DNA from: Melioribacter roseus
GTDB taxonomy: Bacteria; Bacteroidota; Ignavibacteria; Ignavibacteriales; Melioribacteraceae
Length of the DNA: 33,577 nt
Assembly: GCA_020723165.1 (NCBI GenBank)
Contig: DYJK01000031.1
Coordinates: 1 to 33,577, forward strand
Direction: 5' to 3'
The position numbers were made by a program, and so were the translations under genes. Shown in pieces: positions 11,329 through 32,483 of this stretch. Under the pieces are notes generated by a model. It saw only the letters and a list, made by a program, of their open reading frames with translations. It did not search any database and was not told the DNA's origin. Within the stretch, counting starts at the first letter, position 1; each line of letters opens with the position of its first letter.

Positions 11329-13818
11329 ATGGCAAAGAAAAATAATCATAAAGAAACTGCTACCTCCGCATCAGAAGAAAAATTCTTTGTTATTTCGCCT
11401 CGCAAAAAGAAAAAACTTCTCGGAATATTTTTAATAGTATTTGCACTTTTAATATTATTAAGTATACTTTCTTATTCACGATCGGATGAATCATCCTTTA
11501 GTTATCGCTTTACCGATCTATTTAACATTTTTACCCAAAATGCAGAGATAAAGGAAAAGGCTGCCGGCACTCATAACTGGCTCGGTATTTTCGGCGCTTA
11601 TATTTCTTATTTCTTTATCCATTCTACATTAGGTTACTTATCGATTGTGTTCCCGGTAATTATGTTTATATGGGGATACACTGCATTAAAAGGTGAAAAC
11701 AGCAGACTTGCAATTTATATTACCAACTTTTTATTGGTGATGGGAATATTGATAGCAACCTTTTTCGGGATGGTCCGCTATACTCCTGAGTTAAATTTAT
11801 TTGCAGATGTTTATGAACTTTCGGGCAACATTGGGTTGTTCCTGGGGACTGCCATCAGCCGCTTATTGGGCGGTTTAGGAAGTATAATTTTTCTATCGGC
11901 TGCGATACTTGTAACATTAATTATTGCTTTTGATTTTAAATTGAGTTGGATACTTGGATTCCTAAAAAGGTTGTTTAAGGAAGGGGATTCTGAAGTAAGT
12001 GATATTACAATAAAAACACCAGAAGATGAAAGGTTGGATGATAATCTTGCTAAGATTAAGAATTTAAGAGATGGGTCAAGACTTAAATCATTATTTAAAG
12101 ATAAAGATGATGAAGAAATTGAAGAAGAAGCTGATAAAGAACTTGAGACTAAAATCAGGATAGTCAAAAAAGATGAACCTGAAAAAATAATTGCTGCCGA
12201 TAATCTTTATGATGAAACATCTAAAGCGAAAAAACCTGAGACTAAACAACATAAACCCAAAGTAGATGAAGAAGATCTTCCGGCTGTTGATAAAGAGGAA
12301 GAATCTAAATTTCCGGAACAATGGGAAGAAGAAATTGATTACACCCCTCCTAAATTGGAATTATTAACCCCGGCAGATGACGAAGAAGTGAAAATTCATG
12401 AAAGCGAGTTGAAACGAAATGCAGAATTACTCAAAGAAAAACTTGCTCTGTTCGATATACTAATTGAAGACATTACCGTAACACCGGGACCGGTAGTTAC
12501 ATTATATGAGATAGTACCGGCGCCGGGTGTAAAAATTTCGAGAATAGTTAGTCTTGAACATGATATTGCTCTTGCACTTGCTGCAAGGGGAATTAGAATA
12601 ATTGCGCCGATACCGGGTAAGAGTGCGATTGGTGTTGAAATTCCGAATGCACAAGCTTCATTGGTAAGGGCACGTTCGGTGATTGCAAAACTAAAAGATA
12701 CAAAAGCAGAATTGCCGCTTGCATTGGGCAAAACAATTTCGGGTGATGTTTATATAACCGACCTTGCAAAGATGCCTCACATGCTTATTGCCGGTTCTAC
12801 CGGTTCGGGTAAAAGTGTCGGCATAAACATGATTATAAACAGCTTGATTTATGCCAAACATCCATCAGATATAAAATTTGTAATTATTGATCCTAAGAAA
12901 ATTGAATTATCATTCTATAAAAAACTTAATAAACACTTTTTAGCCGTATCGCCTGATCTGGAAGAAGAAATTATTACAAATCCTCAGAATGCTTTGCTCT
13001 CTTTGAAAGCCGTAGAATACGAAATGGAAAGGAGGTATGATAAGCTTGCTAAAATAGGTGTGCGTAATATTGTAGACTATAACAAAAAAGTATCGAATCC
13101 CAAAACACGTCCTAAAGATACCGAGGAAATGAAACACTATAAGATGCCGTACATAATAATTGTAATAGATGAACTTGCCGATTTAATGATTACTTCCGGC
13201 AAAGAGGTGGAAGAACCGATTGCACGTCTTGCACAACTTGCTAGAGCTGTTGGCATCCATTTAATACTAGCAACACAGCGCCCATCTGTTAACGTAATAA
13301 CCGGTGTGATAAAAGCTAACTTCAGCGCACGTGTTGCATACCAGGTAGCAACAAAGATTGATTCAAGAACAATTCTTGATATGAACGGTGCGGAACAATT
13401 ACTTGGCAGCGGAGATATGCTCTTCTTACCCGGTGGGATGCCGAAACCGATTCGTATTCAAAATGCTTTTATTTCGACTGAGGAAGTAGAAAAGATTACA
13501 AACTTCATTTATGTACAGAAAGGTTTTTCAAAGCGGTATTTCTTGCCCTCAATGTTCGAAAAAAGAAAAGCAGATATGGGCGATTTTCTCTCCGACCTTG
13601 ACCCGATGTTTGAAGAAGCCGCACGTGTTGTTGTACGCCATCAGCAAGGATCGGTATCGCTGCTGCAAAGAAGATTGAAACTTGGTTATTCGAGAGCCGC
13701 AAGAATAGTTGACCAGCTAGAACAAGCCGGTATCGTTGGCCCATCGGAAGGCAGTAAAGCAAGAGAAGTTATTGTTGATAGTGAAGAACAGTTGGAAACA
13801 ATTTTAAGATCTCTATAA
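11329..13818 (+). CDS. ftsK: DNA translocase FtsK/SpoIIIE
   Basis: FtsK is a septum-anchored, hexameric motor that pumps the chromosome ends apart and activates Xer recombination at dif. The 829 residues show about four or five N-terminal membrane segments (residues 25-205). A charged Lys/Glu-rich linker spans about 215-345. The motor has Walker A GSTGSGKS at 489-496 and Walker B IIVIDELADLM with Asp614. The winged-helix gamma domain covers about 765-829, including SVSLLQRRLKLGYSRAARI. The gamma domain reads polar guide sequences in the family. lolA begins directly after the stop codon. A XerC/D recombinase is encoded at 30361. Confidence 0.97.
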   Translation: MAKKNNHKETATSASEEKFFVISPRKKKKLLGIFLIVFALLILLSILSYSRSDESSFSYRFTDLFNIFTQNAEIKEKAAGTHNWLGIFGAYISYFFIHSTLGYLSIVFPVIMFIWGYTALKGENSRLAIYITNFLLVMGILIATFFGMVRYTPELNLFADVYELSGNIGLFLGTAISRLLGGLGSIIFLSAAILVTLIIAFDFKLSWILGFLKRLFKEGDSEVSDITIKTPEDERLDDNLAKIKNLRDGSRLKSLFKDKDDEEIEEEADKELETKIRIVKKDEPEKIIAADNLYDETSKAKKPETKQHKPKVDEEDLPAVDKEEESKFPEQWEEEIDYTPPKLELLTPADDEEVKIHESELKRNAELLKEKLALFDILIEDITVTPGPVVTLYEIVPAPGVKISRIVSLEHDIALALAARGIRIIAPIPGKSAIGVEIPNAQASLVRARSVIAKLKDTKAELPLALGKTISGDVYITDLAKMPHMLIAGSTGSGKSVGINMIINSLIYAKHPSDIKFVIIDPKKIELSFYKKLNKHFLAVSPDLEEEIITNPQNALLSLKAVEYEMERRYDKLAKIGVRNIVDYNKKVSNPKTRPKDTEEMKHYKMPYIIIVIDELADLMITSGKEVEEPIARLAQLARAVGIHLILATQRPSVNVITGVIKANFSARVAYQVATKIDSRTILDMNGAEQLLGSGDMLFLPGGMPKPIRIQNAFISTEEVEKITNFIYVQKGFSKRYFLPSMFEKRKADMGDFLSDLDPMFEEAARVVVRHQQGSVSLLQRRLKLGYSRAARIVDQLEQAGIVGPSEGSKAREVIVDSEEQLETILRSL

Positions 13819-14433
13819 ATGATTGCAAATTTTATTACTATCCTATTCCTATTTGTTTACAATTATTCCGTTCAATCCGGGAATGAACTGTTAAAACGAA
13901 TTCAAAATGAGTTTAGATCATTCGAGAATTTCAGTGCACAATTCACACAGACTATTTATGATGAACAAGGAAAAACTACCGGTAGAACATCCGGCAAGTT
14001 TACTTATAAGAAAAAAAACAAATTTATTGTTGAGCTGAAAAATTCATCGATTGTTTCTAACGGTGAAACTATTTGGAATTATGATAAAAAACTTAAACGA
14101 GTCGTGATAAGCTATTTTGATGATGAACCGACCTCTTTTTCTTTAGACCGATTTGTTTTTGATTACCCGGCACTATGTAAAATCCGGAGTGTAAAAATTG
14201 ATGAATCAAACAAGCAGCTTTTAGAACTTATCCCCAAGGATGAAAATTTAAATTTCAAGAGCATAAAAATTTGGGTCGACGAAAGCTATTTCATAAATAA
14301 GCTGGAAATTGTAGATTTAAGTGATCTCAAATTCACTATACAAATTAGCGACGTAAAGAGAAATCAGGATATTTCTGATTCAAAGTTTACATTCTATCCG
14401 CCAAAAGGGATACAAATTATTGATCTCCGGTAA
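13819..14433 (+). CDS. lolA: Outer membrane lipoprotein carrier LolA-like
   Basis: LolA shuttles lipoproteins across the periplasm from the inner to the outer membrane. The 204-residue protein has a short hydrophobic N-terminus (residues 2-17) that can act as a signal peptide. The family pattern LLKRIQNEFRSFENFSAQFTQTIYDEQGK follows. Next come GKFTYKKKNKFIVE and SNGETIWNYDKKLKRVVI, the half-barrel strands typical of LolA in Bacteroidota. The ATG abuts the ftsK stop with no spacer. The ftsK-lolA order is common in Bacteroidota. Outside that lineage similar proteins are listed under the DUF4292/LolA-like group, so exact orthology is slightly uncertain. Confidence 0.88.
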   Translation: MIANFITILFLFVYNYSVQSGNELLKRIQNEFRSFENFSAQFTQTIYDEQGKTTGRTSGKFTYKKKNKFIVELKNSSIVSNGETIWNYDKKLKRVVISYFDDEPTSFSLDRFVFDYPALCKIRSVKIDESNKQLLELIPKDENLNFKSIKIWVDESYFINKLEIVDLSDLKFTIQISDVKRNQDISDSKFTFYPPKGIQIIDLR

Positions 14434-16135: not shown

Positions 16136-16984
16136 ATGAATATTTTTGAAGCTATTTTTCTGGGTATCATTCAAGGATTAACAGAATTTCTTCCAATAAG
16201 CAGTACCGGTCACTTAACTGTTGCCGGTAAACTGATGGGACTAATATCAACCGAGAATCCCGAAGAATGGACAGCTTTTATTGCAGTAATTCAACTCGGT
16301 ACTTTAGCTGCTGTATTAATTTATTTTTGGAATGACCTCTTCTATATTGTTAAAGATTTCTTAGCGGATAATCTATTCAAACCAAAAAAAATTGCAGATC
16401 AATCGCAAAATTCTAAGATGGGCTGGTTTTTAATTATTGCAACACTTCCGGTTGTTGTTATTGGGCTTTTGTTCAAAGATACAATTGAAGGCGTACTTAC
16501 AAAAAATCTTGTTGTTATTTCAATCAGTTTGATTGCTCTTGGCATAATTTTATTTATAGCAGAAAAGTTAGGTAAGTTTAATCGCGATCAAAAAGAAATT
16601 AATTGGTTCGATTCCCTTATAATCGGGTTAGCGCAGTCATTAGCTCTAATTCCCGGTTCCTCTCGTTCGGGAACTACAATAACTGCCGGATTATTTTTAG
16701 GATTCAGCCGCGAGACAGCAGCACGTTTTTCTTTTTTGATGAGTGTCCCGGCAGTATTCGCAAGCGGTCTGCTTCAGTTCTACCAATCACTCGAACAGCT
16801 TAATTTTAATAGCTCGATAAATTTAATAACTGCAACTATAGTCTCAGCAATAGTTGGCTATCTTTCTATAGAATTTTTGTTGAGATACTTACGAAAAAGA
16901 TCAGTTATGATTTTTGTAATTTATCGAATTGTTGTTGGTATTTTGATTCTACTTTTAATCTACAACGGGGTTATTCAATCATAG
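16136..16984 (+). CDS. uppP: Undecaprenyl-diphosphate phosphatase (UppP/BacA)
   Basis: UppP dephosphorylates undecaprenyl diphosphate to regenerate the lipid carrier for peptidoglycan and O-antigen, and it confers bacitracin tolerance. The 282 residues include the first signature [14 protein letters not shown] (residues 14-27) and the second signature [17 protein letters not shown] (about 172-188). Both contain the catalytic Glu, Ser, His and Arg residues, and about eight membrane helices surround them. The Shine-Dalgarno AGGAG at 16127-16131 overlaps the stop of the upstream barrel gene, which suggests coupled translation. Confidence 0.97.
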
Positions 16985-28139: not shown

Positions 28140-28155
28140 CAAACATTTGTTTTGG

Positions 28156-30357
28156 ATGGACCCACAATTAAAAATAAAATTGAAAGAGAGCAAAAGAATA
28201 AAAATTCTTATTGTACTCGTCACTATTATTCTAATTGTTATGATGTTCCCGAAAGGCGAATCAATAGAATCCGAAGTTACCATCGGTTCTGTGTGGATTA
28301 AAGATGATCTTATTGCCTCAACTACTTTCGAGATCCTAAAAAATAAAGAGCAATTTGAAAAAGAAAAACTGCAAGCTTCTTCAAAAATCTTCCCGATATT
28401 TTTGCGTGATAATAGCATTACAGCAATTACAATCGATTCTATTAAAAGGGATAATAAAAATTTAATCAATATAATTGCCCGGACTAACAGCAGTAACATT
28501 GAATTACAAAACAAATTGTTCCTCAGCGATCAATCTTTTACAACCTTCTACAGATTAAGGTATCTCCCTAATTCTTTCCGCGAGTTAAAAACTAATACAT
28601 TATTTGGAATATTAAATCACGCTGTTGAGTTGCTGAACCGGATATATCAAAGAGGTCTCCTGAATGTTACGTATAATGAAATAAATCGTGATAGTGTTTC
28701 AGTCCGTGATGGAAAGTTTGAAAGAATTTTTCCAAAAGAATTGTACTTCGATAGATATTCCGTTAATAAATTCTTAGACGAATATATCGAAAATAACATA
28801 GGCAAAAACAGCGAGGTGATAGAAGCTTTTTCAGAGTATCTATTGTACCATCTCAAACCTAATTTAATTTACAGTTTTGAACTCACGAGTATTGCAATAG
28901 CTGACGCTAAAGATAAAGTACCTAGAAACGTCGGCATTGTTAATGAAAATGAAAGAATAGTTGCAAAACACGATAGGATTACACCGGATGTAAAATTAAA
29001 AATTGATTCGTACCGTGTTGCAAAGGGAGAAGAAACTGGTTTCTGGGGGAGGTTCAGCCAAAACTTAGGTAAGTCTATACATGTTTCGATAATAATTTTG
29101 TTGCTGATTATTTATATCTATTTATTCCGTAAGAGAATCTATAATGATAATATTAAAATTTTACTGATCTCAATTATCATTCTGTTTATTAGCTTTTTGA
29201 CGTTTCTGATTTATAGTCTTAATGTTTCGTCACCGGTTGAGTTTTTAGTTGTTGTCCCGGTCGCTTCGATGCTGCTTACTATAATATTTGATTCGCGCAT
29301 AGGGTTTTACGGTACTGTTGTGGTTTCATTAATAGTGGGCGGATTGAGGGGCAACGATTATGTATTCACTATTATGAATATTGTTGCCGGGGGTTTATCG
29401 GCATATACAGTGCGTGATATAAAAAATCGTACTCAGATATTTCGTTCATTCTTTTTCATTCTTGTTGGATACGTAATTAGTATTATCGCTTTTGGATTAG
29501 AAAGATTCGCTTCATTTGATCAAATGACTGTTAGTTTTGCATTCGCAGCATCCAATGCACTAATAAGTCCGGTTTTTACATACGGCCTGATAATTTTTAT
29601 CGAAAGAATTTTTAAGATTACTACAGAATTAACATTACTTGAACTGACCGATTTCAATCATCCGCTATTAAAAGAACTTGCAAGGAATGCAACCGGAACA
29701 TTTAACCATTCAATGATTATGGGGACACTTGCCGAGACAGCGTCAGAGGCAATTGGTGCAAATTCTATATTATGCCGCGTTGGTGCTTATTATCATGATA
29801 TCGGTAAATCACTTGACCCGGCAAGCTTTGTTGAAAATCAAATTGCTTCCGAAAATATTCATGAAAGATTAAAGCCTGAAAAGAGTTTAGAACTGATTCT
29901 CAATCATGTTAAAAAAGGAATTGAAATTGCTGAGCAATATAATATTCCGAAAGAAGTAGTAAATTTTATCCCGATGCACCATGGTACGATGGTAGTAACT
30001 TACTTTTATGAAAAAGCCAAGAATTTATATGGTGAGAATAATGTTAATATTGATGATTACCGTTACCCGGGACCAAAACCTGACTCGAAAGAAACTGCTA
30101 TAGTTATGCTTGCCGATGCATGCGAATCAACGATTCGTTCGCTTACCAATGCCGATCCGGAGAAAATTGAAAATGTAATTAATAATCTTATCTCCGCAAG
30201 GATTGATGACGGTCAGCTGGATAATGCACCACTTACATTTAAGGATATAAAAAAGATCAAGGAATCATTCTTTAATATTCTTGTAGGACAACATCATAAA
30301 AGAATAAAATACCCCAAACAAGAAGAGCTGGAATCACTTAAAGATGAGAAGCTTTAA
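28156..30357 (+). CDS. PgpH-like 7TM HD-domain phosphohydrolase
   Basis: The layout matches PgpH, which hydrolyses cyclic di-AMP. There is one N-terminal membrane helix (about 12-30), then a large extracytoplasmic 7TMR-HDED domain to about 290. Seven membrane helices follow to about 490 (including LLLIIYIYLFRKRI and SPVEFLVVVPVASMLLTIIF). A cytoplasmic HD domain comes last, with His518 in FNHSMIMG, His547-Asp548 in YYHDIGK, and PMHHGT further on. I prefer ATG 28156 (733 residues) over the TTG at 28147. c-di-AMP specificity is from family knowledge, and no synthase gene is visible. XerC/D starts three bases after the stop. Confidence 0.88.
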   Translation: MDPQLKIKLKESKRIKILIVLVTIILIVMMFPKGESIESEVTIGSVWIKDDLIASTTFEILKNKEQFEKEKLQASSKIFPIFLRDNSITAITIDSIKRDNKNLINIIARTNSSNIELQNKLFLSDQSFTTFYRLRYLPNSFRELKTNTLFGILNHAVELLNRIYQRGLLNVTYNEINRDSVSVRDGKFERIFPKELYFDRYSVNKFLDEYIENNIGKNSEVIEAFSEYLLYHLKPNLIYSFELTSIAIADAKDKVPRNVGIVNENERIVAKHDRITPDVKLKIDSYRVAKGEETGFWGRFSQNLGKSIHVSIIILLLIIYIYLFRKRIYNDNIKILLISIIILFISFLTFLIYSLNVSSPVEFLVVVPVASMLLTIIFDSRIGFYGTVVVSLIVGGLRGNDYVFTIMNIVAGGLSAYTVRDIKNRTQIFRSFFFILVGYVISIIAFGLERFASFDQMTVSFAFAASNALISPVFTYGLIIFIERIFKITTELTLLELTDFNHPLLKELARNATGTFNHSMIMGTLAETASEAIGANSILCRVGAYYHDIGKSLDPASFVENQIASENIHERLKPEKSLELILNHVKKGIEIAEQYNIPKEVVNFIPMHHGTMVVTYFYEKAKNLYGENNVNIDDYRYPGPKPDSKETAIVMLADACESTIRSLTNADPEKIENVINNLISARIDDGQLDNAPLTFKDIKKIKESFFNILVGQHHKRIKYPKQEELESLKDEKL

Positions 30358-30360
30358 AAA

Positions 30361-31251
30361 ATGGAGACGTTTGTTAAAGAATATCTAACTATTCTCCGTT
30401 TCGAAAAAAATCTTTCCGATAATACCATTCAGTCATATCAAAATGATATAAACAATTTTATCAATTTCATCCTGGATAATAATATTAAGGACTTGAATGA
30501 AGTAGGTCCCAAGATAATCTCAGATTTTTTTGATAAACAAAGAAAAGTGGGGAGGGATAGTTCTACAACTGCTCGTTATATGTCTTCAATTAAAGGATTC
30601 TTTAATTACTTAGAAGATTCGGGTTATGTAGAAAAGAATCCGACTGAAAAGTTAGTGCATGTTAAACAGTCTAGGAAATTACCGCCCGTACTTTCTTTTG
30701 TTGATATTGAAAAAATACTAAACACACCTAAAACTGATAATACTATTGGTCTCAGGGATAAGGCAATTCTGGAATTATTTTATTCATCGGGTCTCCGTGT
30801 TTCGGAGTTGATCAATCTAAAGATTAGCGATCTGTTCTTGAACGATGAATTTATTAGGGTACTTGGAAAGGGCTCGAAAGAAAGGATAGTTCCGATAGGA
30901 AGCAGCGCAATTAAATGGGTGCAAGAATATTTAATAAAGGCGCGCCCATCGCTTGAGAAAAAGAATAAAAGTATGAATTACATTTTTCTTAACAAGCGCG
31001 GCACTAAACTTTCAAGGATGTGGATATGGAAAATATTTAATTTTTATTCTAAAGAAGCTGGGATTAATATCGAGATTCATCCGCACACTTTCAGGCACTC
31101 ATTTGCAACTCACTTATTAGAGGGAGGCGCCGATCTCCGTGCTGTTCAAGAAATGCTTGGACATGCCGATATTTCTACTACCCAGATATATACTCATATT
31201 GATAGAGAATATATTAAACAAGTTCACCGCGATCATCATCCAAGAGGCTAA
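30361..31251 (+). CDS. xerD: Tyrosine recombinase XerC/XerD
   Basis: Xer recombinases resolve chromosome dimers at dif during division, in cooperation with FtsK. The 296 residues have an N-terminal SAM-like core-binding domain (FVKEYLTILRFEKNLSDNTI). The catalytic set is complete: Arg146 (SGLRVSEL), Lys170, His242 and Arg245 (HPHTFRHSFATH), His268 (LGHAD) and Tyr277 (IYTHID). All are offset by exactly two from E. coli XerD, which favours XerD over XerC, although lineage-level XerC/D assignment needs the other copy. The ATG lies three bases after the PgpH-like stop with no Shine-Dalgarno. Confidence 0.92.
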   Translation: METFVKEYLTILRFEKNLSDNTIQSYQNDINNFINFILDNNIKDLNEVGPKIISDFFDKQRKVGRDSSTTARYMSSIKGFFNYLEDSGYVEKNPTEKLVHVKQSRKLPPVLSFVDIEKILNTPKTDNTIGLRDKAILELFYSSGLRVSELINLKISDLFLNDEFIRVLGKGSKERIVPIGSSAIKWVQEYLIKARPSLEKKNKSMNYIFLNKRGTKLSRMWIWKIFNFYSKEAGINIEIHPHTFRHSFATHLLEGGADLRAVQEMLGHADISTTQIYTHIDREYIKQVHRDHHPRG

Positions 31252-31262
31252 TTACCGGTGTT

Positions 31263-32483
31263 ATGAAAAATCATTCTGTAAAAATATCACTTATATATGC
31301 GCTCGGTTTTTGTGCGGCTCTACTATCTGGCTGCAAACCTATCGATACCGAAGTTGACGATAGTCAAAAATATTTTATTAATCTCGGGGAGTTTACAACT
31401 TACGATGAAGCGGATGCTTTCAAATCTAAAATTGATTTTGAATTATGGCGTGAATTAAAAATTAAACAGATTGAAGAAAAAAGATTTATGATGCTCTATG
31501 GTTCATTTAATTCTTCTTTTGATGCCGGTGAAAAAGGATTTGAACTTTATTCAAACTCATTGATCTCGAATTACAAGATCTTAAAAGAAAATAATTATGT
31601 TCACGATGATTTTTCAAATTTCATGTTTATTGGAAAATACCAGGGACGGCAATCAATTTTTAGTTATAACTTAACATCTCAAAAGACAAAGCAAGTTTGG
31701 AGCCGCTGGGGTAGGAAAGTTGTAACATTAAATCATTCATTCGATAAAGGTGGAATCTTTTTTACAACCGCACTCGGATTTGGAAAGCAAGGATCATTCC
31801 CCTATATAAGAGATGCAAGACTCTACATATATAGAAATGCTAACGATGTTTTCGAAGAGATTGAAGAATTCGGGACGGGTTTGCAGATTTATACTTTTTG
31901 GGAAAATGCAGATACATTCAAAGTAAATCTAACAAAACCGGATTCCATTGATTCGAATATTCTTATCCAGGAAATATCTTCTTATGATTTATCAGGTAAC
32001 AAGGGAACGAAATCTGCCAGGAGATTTAGTTTGACCAAAGACGGCTTTCCAAAGCCTCCCCGGATTAAGCCGGAATATTTTTCTCCTTCTGCTAAAAGAC
32101 AGATTAGAGAAGTAACCCAGGATGGTAAGTCGTATCTTTATCTAAGGGATATAGACAAAAATTCTGAATTGTTGATTTATCAATCGAATGGGAAATTAGA
32201 CGATATACGCTGGACTAATAATAGCAATTTTGCAATGTGTAATATGATTAGTCCTAAATCTCCTAAAGGTTTTGAACTTATAGTTATAGATTGTCCAAAT
32301 AATAAAAGTGAAAGGACATTTTATTCTTCAGATTATATCAATTCATTAGTTCACGGAAACTTATTATTTTTTGAAGAGAAATCTGGTTATGGTTCAGCTA
32401 TATCTATCTATAATTTTGAAAAGGATTCAGTTCTAAATAAAATATCGATGCCGGGCGGCTGCGCTATTTTTAATTTGAAATAA
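31263..32483 (+). CDS. Lipoprotein with SPOR-like domain and propeller-like C-terminus
   Basis: A 406-residue protein I do not recognise as a named gene. It begins with a lipoprotein signal ending in ALLSGC (Cys24). Residues about 37-108 read like a SPOR domain, with paired repeats YFINLGEFTTYDEADAFKSK and FMMLYGSFNSSFDAGEKGFE. SPOR domains bind glycan strands bare of stem peptides at division sites. The remainder is beta-rich, with repeated units such as ARLYIYRNAND, KSYLYLRDIDKNSELLIY and DDIRWTNNSNFAMC, suggesting a WD40/TolB-like propeller. It sits 11 bases after xerD and four bases before an ABC exporter. The domain calls are by eye and need a profile search. Confidence 0.6.
   Translation: MKNHSVKISLIYALGFCAALLSGCKPIDTEVDDSQKYFINLGEFTTYDEADAFKSKIDFELWRELKIKQIEEKRFMMLYGSFNSSFDAGEKGFELYSNSLISNYKILKENNYVHDDFSNFMFIGKYQGRQSIFSYNLTSQKTKQVWSRWGRKVVTLNHSFDKGGIFFTTALGFGKQGSFPYIRDARLYIYRNANDVFEEIEEFGTGLQIYTFWENADTFKVNLTKPDSIDSNILIQEISSYDLSGNKGTKSARRFSLTKDGFPKPPRIKPEYFSPSAKRQIREVTQDGKSYLYLRDIDKNSELLIYQSNGKLDDIRWTNNSNFAMCNMISPKSPKGFELIVIDCPNNKSERTFYSSDYINSLVHGNLLFFEEKSGYGSAISIYNFEKDSVLNKISMPGGCAIFNLK

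Follow-up and report, generated by a model that had tools for sequence, protein, structure and literature searches.

Lipid-anchored beta-propeller proteins of the Ignavibacteriales, some with a SPOR-homologous domain, encoded beside MsbA-type exporters

The DNA analyzed in this study, referred to below as the window, is the whole stretch of 33,577 nucleotides from the Melioribacter roseus (Ignavibacteriales, Melioribacteraceae) assembly GCA_020723165.1 (contig DYJK01000031.1, positions 1-33,577, forward strand). Near its end, and all on the plus strand, lie a gene for a PgpH-type 7TM-HD phosphodiesterase (28147-30357; profile match, predicted start), xerD, encoding a tyrosine recombinase (30361-31251; Phage_integrase, E 1.3e-52), an ORF encoding a lipoprotein of 406 aa from an ATG start (31263-32483), and an MsbA-type ABC exporter gene that is cut by the contig end (32488-33577; ABC_membrane, E 5.1e-46). 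The spacing is tight, with xerD ending 11 bases before the lipoprotein start codon and the ABC gene starting four bases after its stop codon. Neighbors were assigned throughout from phmmer and profile matches of the ORFs. TIGR02203 (MsbA) is the best model for the exporter, yet three complete relatives score 531 to 554 bits, under the equivalog cut-off of 602, and the exporter is therefore named "MsbA-type". Elsewhere in the window, ftsK is directly followed by lolA (11329-14433), bacA is nearby (16136-16984) and xerD further on, so that dimer-resolution and envelope genes share one window.

The lipoprotein begins with a signal sequence and the lipobox LLSGC (31263-31334, plus strand), assigned by eye from the translation, with Cys24 as the lipid-modified residue. 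A single-protein search found relatives in 43 of the 79 genomes of the bacterial family and no match in the other 36. Three protein families, designated f1, f2 and f3, are distinguished among the relatives. Alignment A1 contains 34 full-length members taken from 42 f1 loci; the near-copies or fragments L008, L010, L012, L013, L016, L018, L021 and L039 were omitted. Identity to the window protein is 22-48% across A1, and Cys24, Ala88 and Asp227 are invariant (34/34). The relatives in 43 genomes, the level of identity and the three invariant residues together argue that the ORF is a real gene. A lipoprotein with a lipobox at Cys24, its gene flanked by those for XerD and an MsbA-type exporter, had been proposed in the initial annotation, and both points were borne out, the arrangement of the genes being kept across the order (see below). 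In E. coli, lipoproteins without Asp at position +2 are sorted to the outer membrane. Asp was found at +2 after the lipobox Cys in one of the 34 members; the E. coli rule would place the lipoprotein in the outer membrane, and may fail in the host phylum. At the C-terminus of this exported protein, alignments A1 and A5 display a Gly-Gly-Cys motif (residues 398-400; 32454-32462, plus strand), which is found in f2 and f3 relatives too. Its Cys400 is nearly invariant (32/34 A1 members and 25/28 A5 rows), and a single Cys beyond about residue 25 is present in 11 of the 34 A1 members.

A SPOR-fold domain follows the lipid anchor at residues 37-108 (31371-31586, plus strand). The AlphaFold2 model of the whole protein has a mean pLDDT of 88.0 and a pTM of 0.81, and residues 32-114 modeled alone (pLDDT 91.4) have the strand and helix order typical of SPOR domains. 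Residues 37-108 were modeled in the RNP-like beta-alpha-beta-beta-alpha-beta arrangement of the SPOR fold, with beta1 at 37-44, alpha1 at 47-56, beta2 at 65-71, beta3 at 74-82, alpha2 at 85-97 and beta4 at 105-108. When the domain was searched alone with Foldseek, ranks 1-4 were the SPOR structures of CwlC, RlpA, DedD and DamX (E 0.018 to 0.075). VIA-align placed SPOR structures at ranks 2-6 (Z 8.2 to 6.6; rank 7 has Z 4.7). Its rank 1, and thus the closest likeness by this method, is residues 81-167 of the exported protein BPSS2145 (PDB 6ozd; Z 10.0, 78 residues, rmsd 2.2), which was compared over this segment and for which no paper was found in our literature search.

Homology to the SPOR family (PF05036) is detectable at the level of the protein family, through profiles. 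Pfam and NCBIfam searches with the window protein sequence alone gave no match. PF05036 was matched by five of the 34 A1 members at E up to 10 (best 8.7e-4), and the f3 relative L091 scores above the curated cut-off (27.7 vs 21 bits). An hhalign comparison, made as one pair, of the N-terminal family alignment with 32 SPOR domains found elsewhere in this bacterial family gave a probability of 96.6 and E 6.5e-10. Against the PDB, the A1 profile matched the CwlC SPOR domain best (E 0.048), and a narrower profile of the isolated domain (A4, without the fragment L049) returned chance matches only and no SPOR chain. Conservation is similar in the SPOR part and the propeller, with mean top-residue fractions of 0.458 and 0.481, which suggests that some constraint maintains the SPOR fold.

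The remainder of the protein, about residues 118-404 (31614-32474, plus strand), is a predicted beta-propeller. In the AlphaFold2 model residues 119-395 are all strands, in about six strand groups, and a ring of four-stranded blades was recovered through AlphaFold2, Foldseek and VIA-align. With the whole model as query, Foldseek ranks 1-14 are all TolB chains (best E 3.7e-10), and the best 50 rows of VIA-align are propellers throughout (Z 15.0 to 13.1), TolB appearing in that list as 7mx5_A (Z 13.7, rmsd 4.6 over 222 residues). A TolB chain is also the best match of the order-wide propeller profile against the PDB (E 0.0051), and the propeller profile also weakly matched the sequence of Leptospira Lp49 (PDB 3bws, E 0.03). 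The models and comparisons make both predicted folds firm. The initial annotation had read a two-repeat SPOR pattern at 37-108 and a propeller C-terminal to it, and this fusion survived structure prediction, where the lack of either fold would have spoken against it, as well as the search against PF05036, where relatives and profiles match and the window protein alone does not. No description of this SPOR-propeller fusion was found in our literature search, which left most subscription papers outside and in whose available texts co-mentions with propellers were incidental; a search for SPOR domains together with Ignavibacteri likewise found nothing.

TolB is composed of an alpha/beta domain and a six-bladed propeller (PMC7391070). 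The layout of a small alpha/beta domain plus propeller is shared with the window lipoprotein, as is the putative periplasmic location. However, TolB carries a TolB_N domain and is encoded in an operon of tol genes, whereas the window protein is a lipoprotein encoded in an operon with msbA and matches neither TolB_N (PF04052) nor NCBIfam TIGR02800. Neither model was found over cut-off in the window's genome, and TolB_N exceeds its cut-off in two of the 164 genomes of the order, which suggests that Tol-Pal is incomplete or strongly diverged in this order. Another comparison is with PorE of the type IX secretion system of Porphyromonas gingivalis, described in PMC7192894 as a proposed scaffold with TPR, propeller, CRD and OmpA_C in that order. 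PorE resembles the window protein as a lipoprotein that combines a beta-propeller with a peptidoglycan-binding-type domain, but its TPR, CRD and OmpA_C give no Pfam match in the window protein.

SPOR domains bind septal glycan through known residues. In the RlpA-glycan structure the contacts are Gln270 (FtsN Gln251, DamX Gln351), Arg302, Arg309 and Arg311; the Gln is called highly conserved, and main-chain contacts to glycan are also reported (PMC6895207). The site of the glycan-contacting Gln is occupied in the window protein by Asn at residue 40 (31380-31382, plus strand), as placed by alignment and agreed by the structural frame: residue 266 of 6i09 pairs with window residue 36 (residue 5 of the domain model), which puts Gln270 at residue 40 if the strand is gapless. 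The beta3 Arg-x-Arg site, aligned to control SPOR domains, is Met-Met-Leu at residues 76-78 (31488-31496, plus strand). The controls are SPOR domains that belong to other proteins of this bacterial family, recovered from 32 of 33 fetched loci (L112 was under cut-off and not recovered). The beta1 Gln is present in 32/32 controls and 1/34 A1 members, the first beta3 Arg in 22/32 and 4/34, and the second in 25/32 and 2/34, where the controls, being mostly the strongest Pfam matches, lean towards typical residues. Residue 40 is hydrophobic in 21/34 members vs none of the 32 controls, and residue 78 in 28/34 vs 2/32. From these aligned positions, the former putative glycan-binding face is now mostly hydrophobic. 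The f3 proteins, read by eye and outside the count of 34, have the Gln in one of four (L091).

Because the Gln and Arg contacts are replaced, we file the domain as SPOR-homologous and not as a septal glycan binder. RlpA, FtsN, DamX, DedD and CwlC (PF05036) share its fold with detectable homology, but differ from the window lipoprotein family in these residues, and in RlpA the SPOR domain is C-terminal (PMC6895207), whereas here it is located between the lipid anchor and the propeller. The initial annotation had assumed targeting of the lipoprotein to denuded septal glycan. Since the known contact residues are replaced in nearly all members and kept in the controls, the alignments do not support such targeting. 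The protein families offer a natural test of what a SPOR domain needs, with the fold intact-looking and the contacts lost in f1 and mostly in f3, and the domain absent from f2. They also give a warning that a SPOR fold by itself should not be taken as septal targeting.

An order-wide search gave a match at E 0.001 or better in 120 of 164 genomes, some of the matches being short and apparently other proteins; those of about 1e-4 to 1e-6 that end the list are apparently other proteins too and were left out of membership. In a phylum sample of 395 genomes, 30 have a match, all in the lipoprotein's own order (Ignavibacteriales), with none among the genomes outside it, whose number, about 355, is estimated from the ordering of the sample. 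A total of 102 loci were compared, comprising 42 f1, 56 f2 and four f3; the f2 and f3 loci are 60 fetched matches of the order search, with the shortest and weakest left out. Families f1 and f3 possess SPOR plus propeller (full-length members of 392-438 residues), and f2 has the propeller alone (290-374 residues): most f2 proteins match the A1 profile from about position 105, and f2 is therefore taken to be without SPOR. A tree of the propellers from 101 of the 102 proteins (280 residues or more), constructed without outgroup, sets f1 to one side with support 100/99. The free tree implies two SPOR changes, and f2 as one clade was not rejected (AU p 0.363). The presence of SPOR is explained by one or two changes, which in a tree without outgroup may be gain or loss.

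The gene order PgpH-XerD-[M50 peptidase]-lipoprotein-MsbA-type exporter is conserved in nearly all loci, with or without SPOR. MsbA is next downstream on the same strand in 85 of the 102 loci, 84 of them with a gap of 25 bases or less. It stands behind one glycosyltransferase gene in six more and nearby on the opposite strand in another six; in the remaining five it is farther off, not seen, or lost at a contig end. The intervening family 2 glycosyltransferase gene was observed between lipoprotein and msbA in the f2 loci L096, L097, L169, L170, L174 and L180. XerD is upstream in 94 loci, either immediately or with an M50 (site-2-protease-type) peptidase gene in between. This peptidase gene was found between xerD and the lipoprotein gene in 43/102 loci (6/42 f1, 4/4 f3 and 33/56 f2, including L090-L093 and most f2 loci), and the window's own operon has none. 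Downstream of MsbA there is often a gene matching O-antigen ligase. In genomes without the lipoprotein, of which 21 were searched as a subset of the 36 lacking a match in the bacterial family, PgpH-XerD-[M50]-MsbA was found with nothing in the lipoprotein's place in 8 of 20 XerD loci. The exporter thus does not need the lipoprotein, which appears as an accessory to a standing operon. Since the tie to MsbA is kept in f2, which lacks SPOR, it is independent of this domain. The survey confirmed the neighborhood seen in the window and spoke against a further suggestion made for it, that the protein couples division-site wall status to lipid export, as the gene still adjoins MsbA in f2.

The gene, its lipobox, the two folds, the conserved gene order and the replacement of the contact residues are results of the analysis. 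We infer the function of the lipoprotein from gene order, which is the only link between it and MsbA; its membrane side, its partner, its packing and its role we infer as well. Our preferred reading, at a probability of about 0.4, makes it a TolB-like adaptor, anchored by lipid, that serves the export or assembly of envelope glycolipids and whose SPOR module would have been recruited to a structural or docking task. In layout this periplasmic adaptor would resemble TolB, with a small alpha/beta module preceding the propeller. The latter would be the working part and would probably bind a protein partner of the glycolipid export and assembly route that the operon encodes with its MsbA-type exporter and, often, the O-antigen-ligase-like gene after it. 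The SPOR module would descend from a glycan-binding SPOR domain that lost its known contacts, and its former binding face, now largely hydrophobic, would probably pack on the propeller or on the partner and so position it.

Alternatively, the lipoprotein may share no more than expression with its neighbors: a periplasmic scaffold with another envelope task, such as stabilizing the outer membrane or assembling polysaccharide, whose gene would be co-transcribed with xerD and msbA as a bystander. Propellers are versatile, housekeeping genes lie all around, and the gene is missing from many genomes, some with the operon otherwise intact. We nevertheless judge this rather doubtful: the MsbA-adjoining position is common to three families, and adjacency to MsbA was also found in the f2 loci L099, L109, L182 and L193, where no XerD was seen (in L099 the MsbA gene is on the opposite strand). 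It is unlikely that the SPOR domain still directs the protein to the division site through other contacts, with the propeller recruiting or sensing a component there. In favor of this are the SPOR fold itself, the location of the gene next to xerD, with ftsK in the same window, the large variation among SPOR sequences, and the main-chain contacts also reported in PMC6895207. But the highly conserved Gln is kept in one of 34 members and the beta3 Arg residues in four and two, two key positions of the face carry mostly hydrophobic residues, and f2 has no SPOR domain at all.

Far less probable still is a replacement of TolB, in which the lipoprotein would take over TolB's part in outer membrane constriction where TolB is missing, as a lipid-anchored analogue partnering Pal and a TolA-like protein. 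TolB is its best Foldseek match and consists of an alpha/beta domain plus six-bladed propeller (PMC7391070), and PF04052 is absent from the window's genome and over cut-off in only two of the 164 order genomes. However, TolB_N is missing from most genomes of the order, with or without the lipoprotein, and 36 of the 79 family genomes have no match to it, so that lipoprotein and TolB are not complementary. Moreover, propellers are widespread folds, the operon showed no Tol genes, and the N-domain is SPOR and not TolB_N.

If the MsbA link is real, the lipoprotein would be an accessory periplasmic factor for glycolipid export; we know of none described of such kind. A wider claim, which we put forward as improbable at present, is that MsbA-type exporters have a new type of partner, an order-wide lipid-anchored propeller whose SPOR, once a glycan binder, would in some lineages now be a protein-docking module; a well-known tag for addressing proteins to the cell wall would then have become a component of lipid export. 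A longer first periplasmic loop of MsbA where the lipoprotein is present was considered and rejected: the lengths, taken by proxy as the stretch between two conserved motifs (9/96 and 1/8 not measurable), overlap with those from loci lacking the gene. One f2 genome has an additional 230-aa ORF (L094:6203-6892, minus strand) that separates xerD from the M50 gene. The f2 lipoprotein gene at G122:C1:3536672-3537566 was matched as two overlapping pieces, which suggests that it carries a frameshift.
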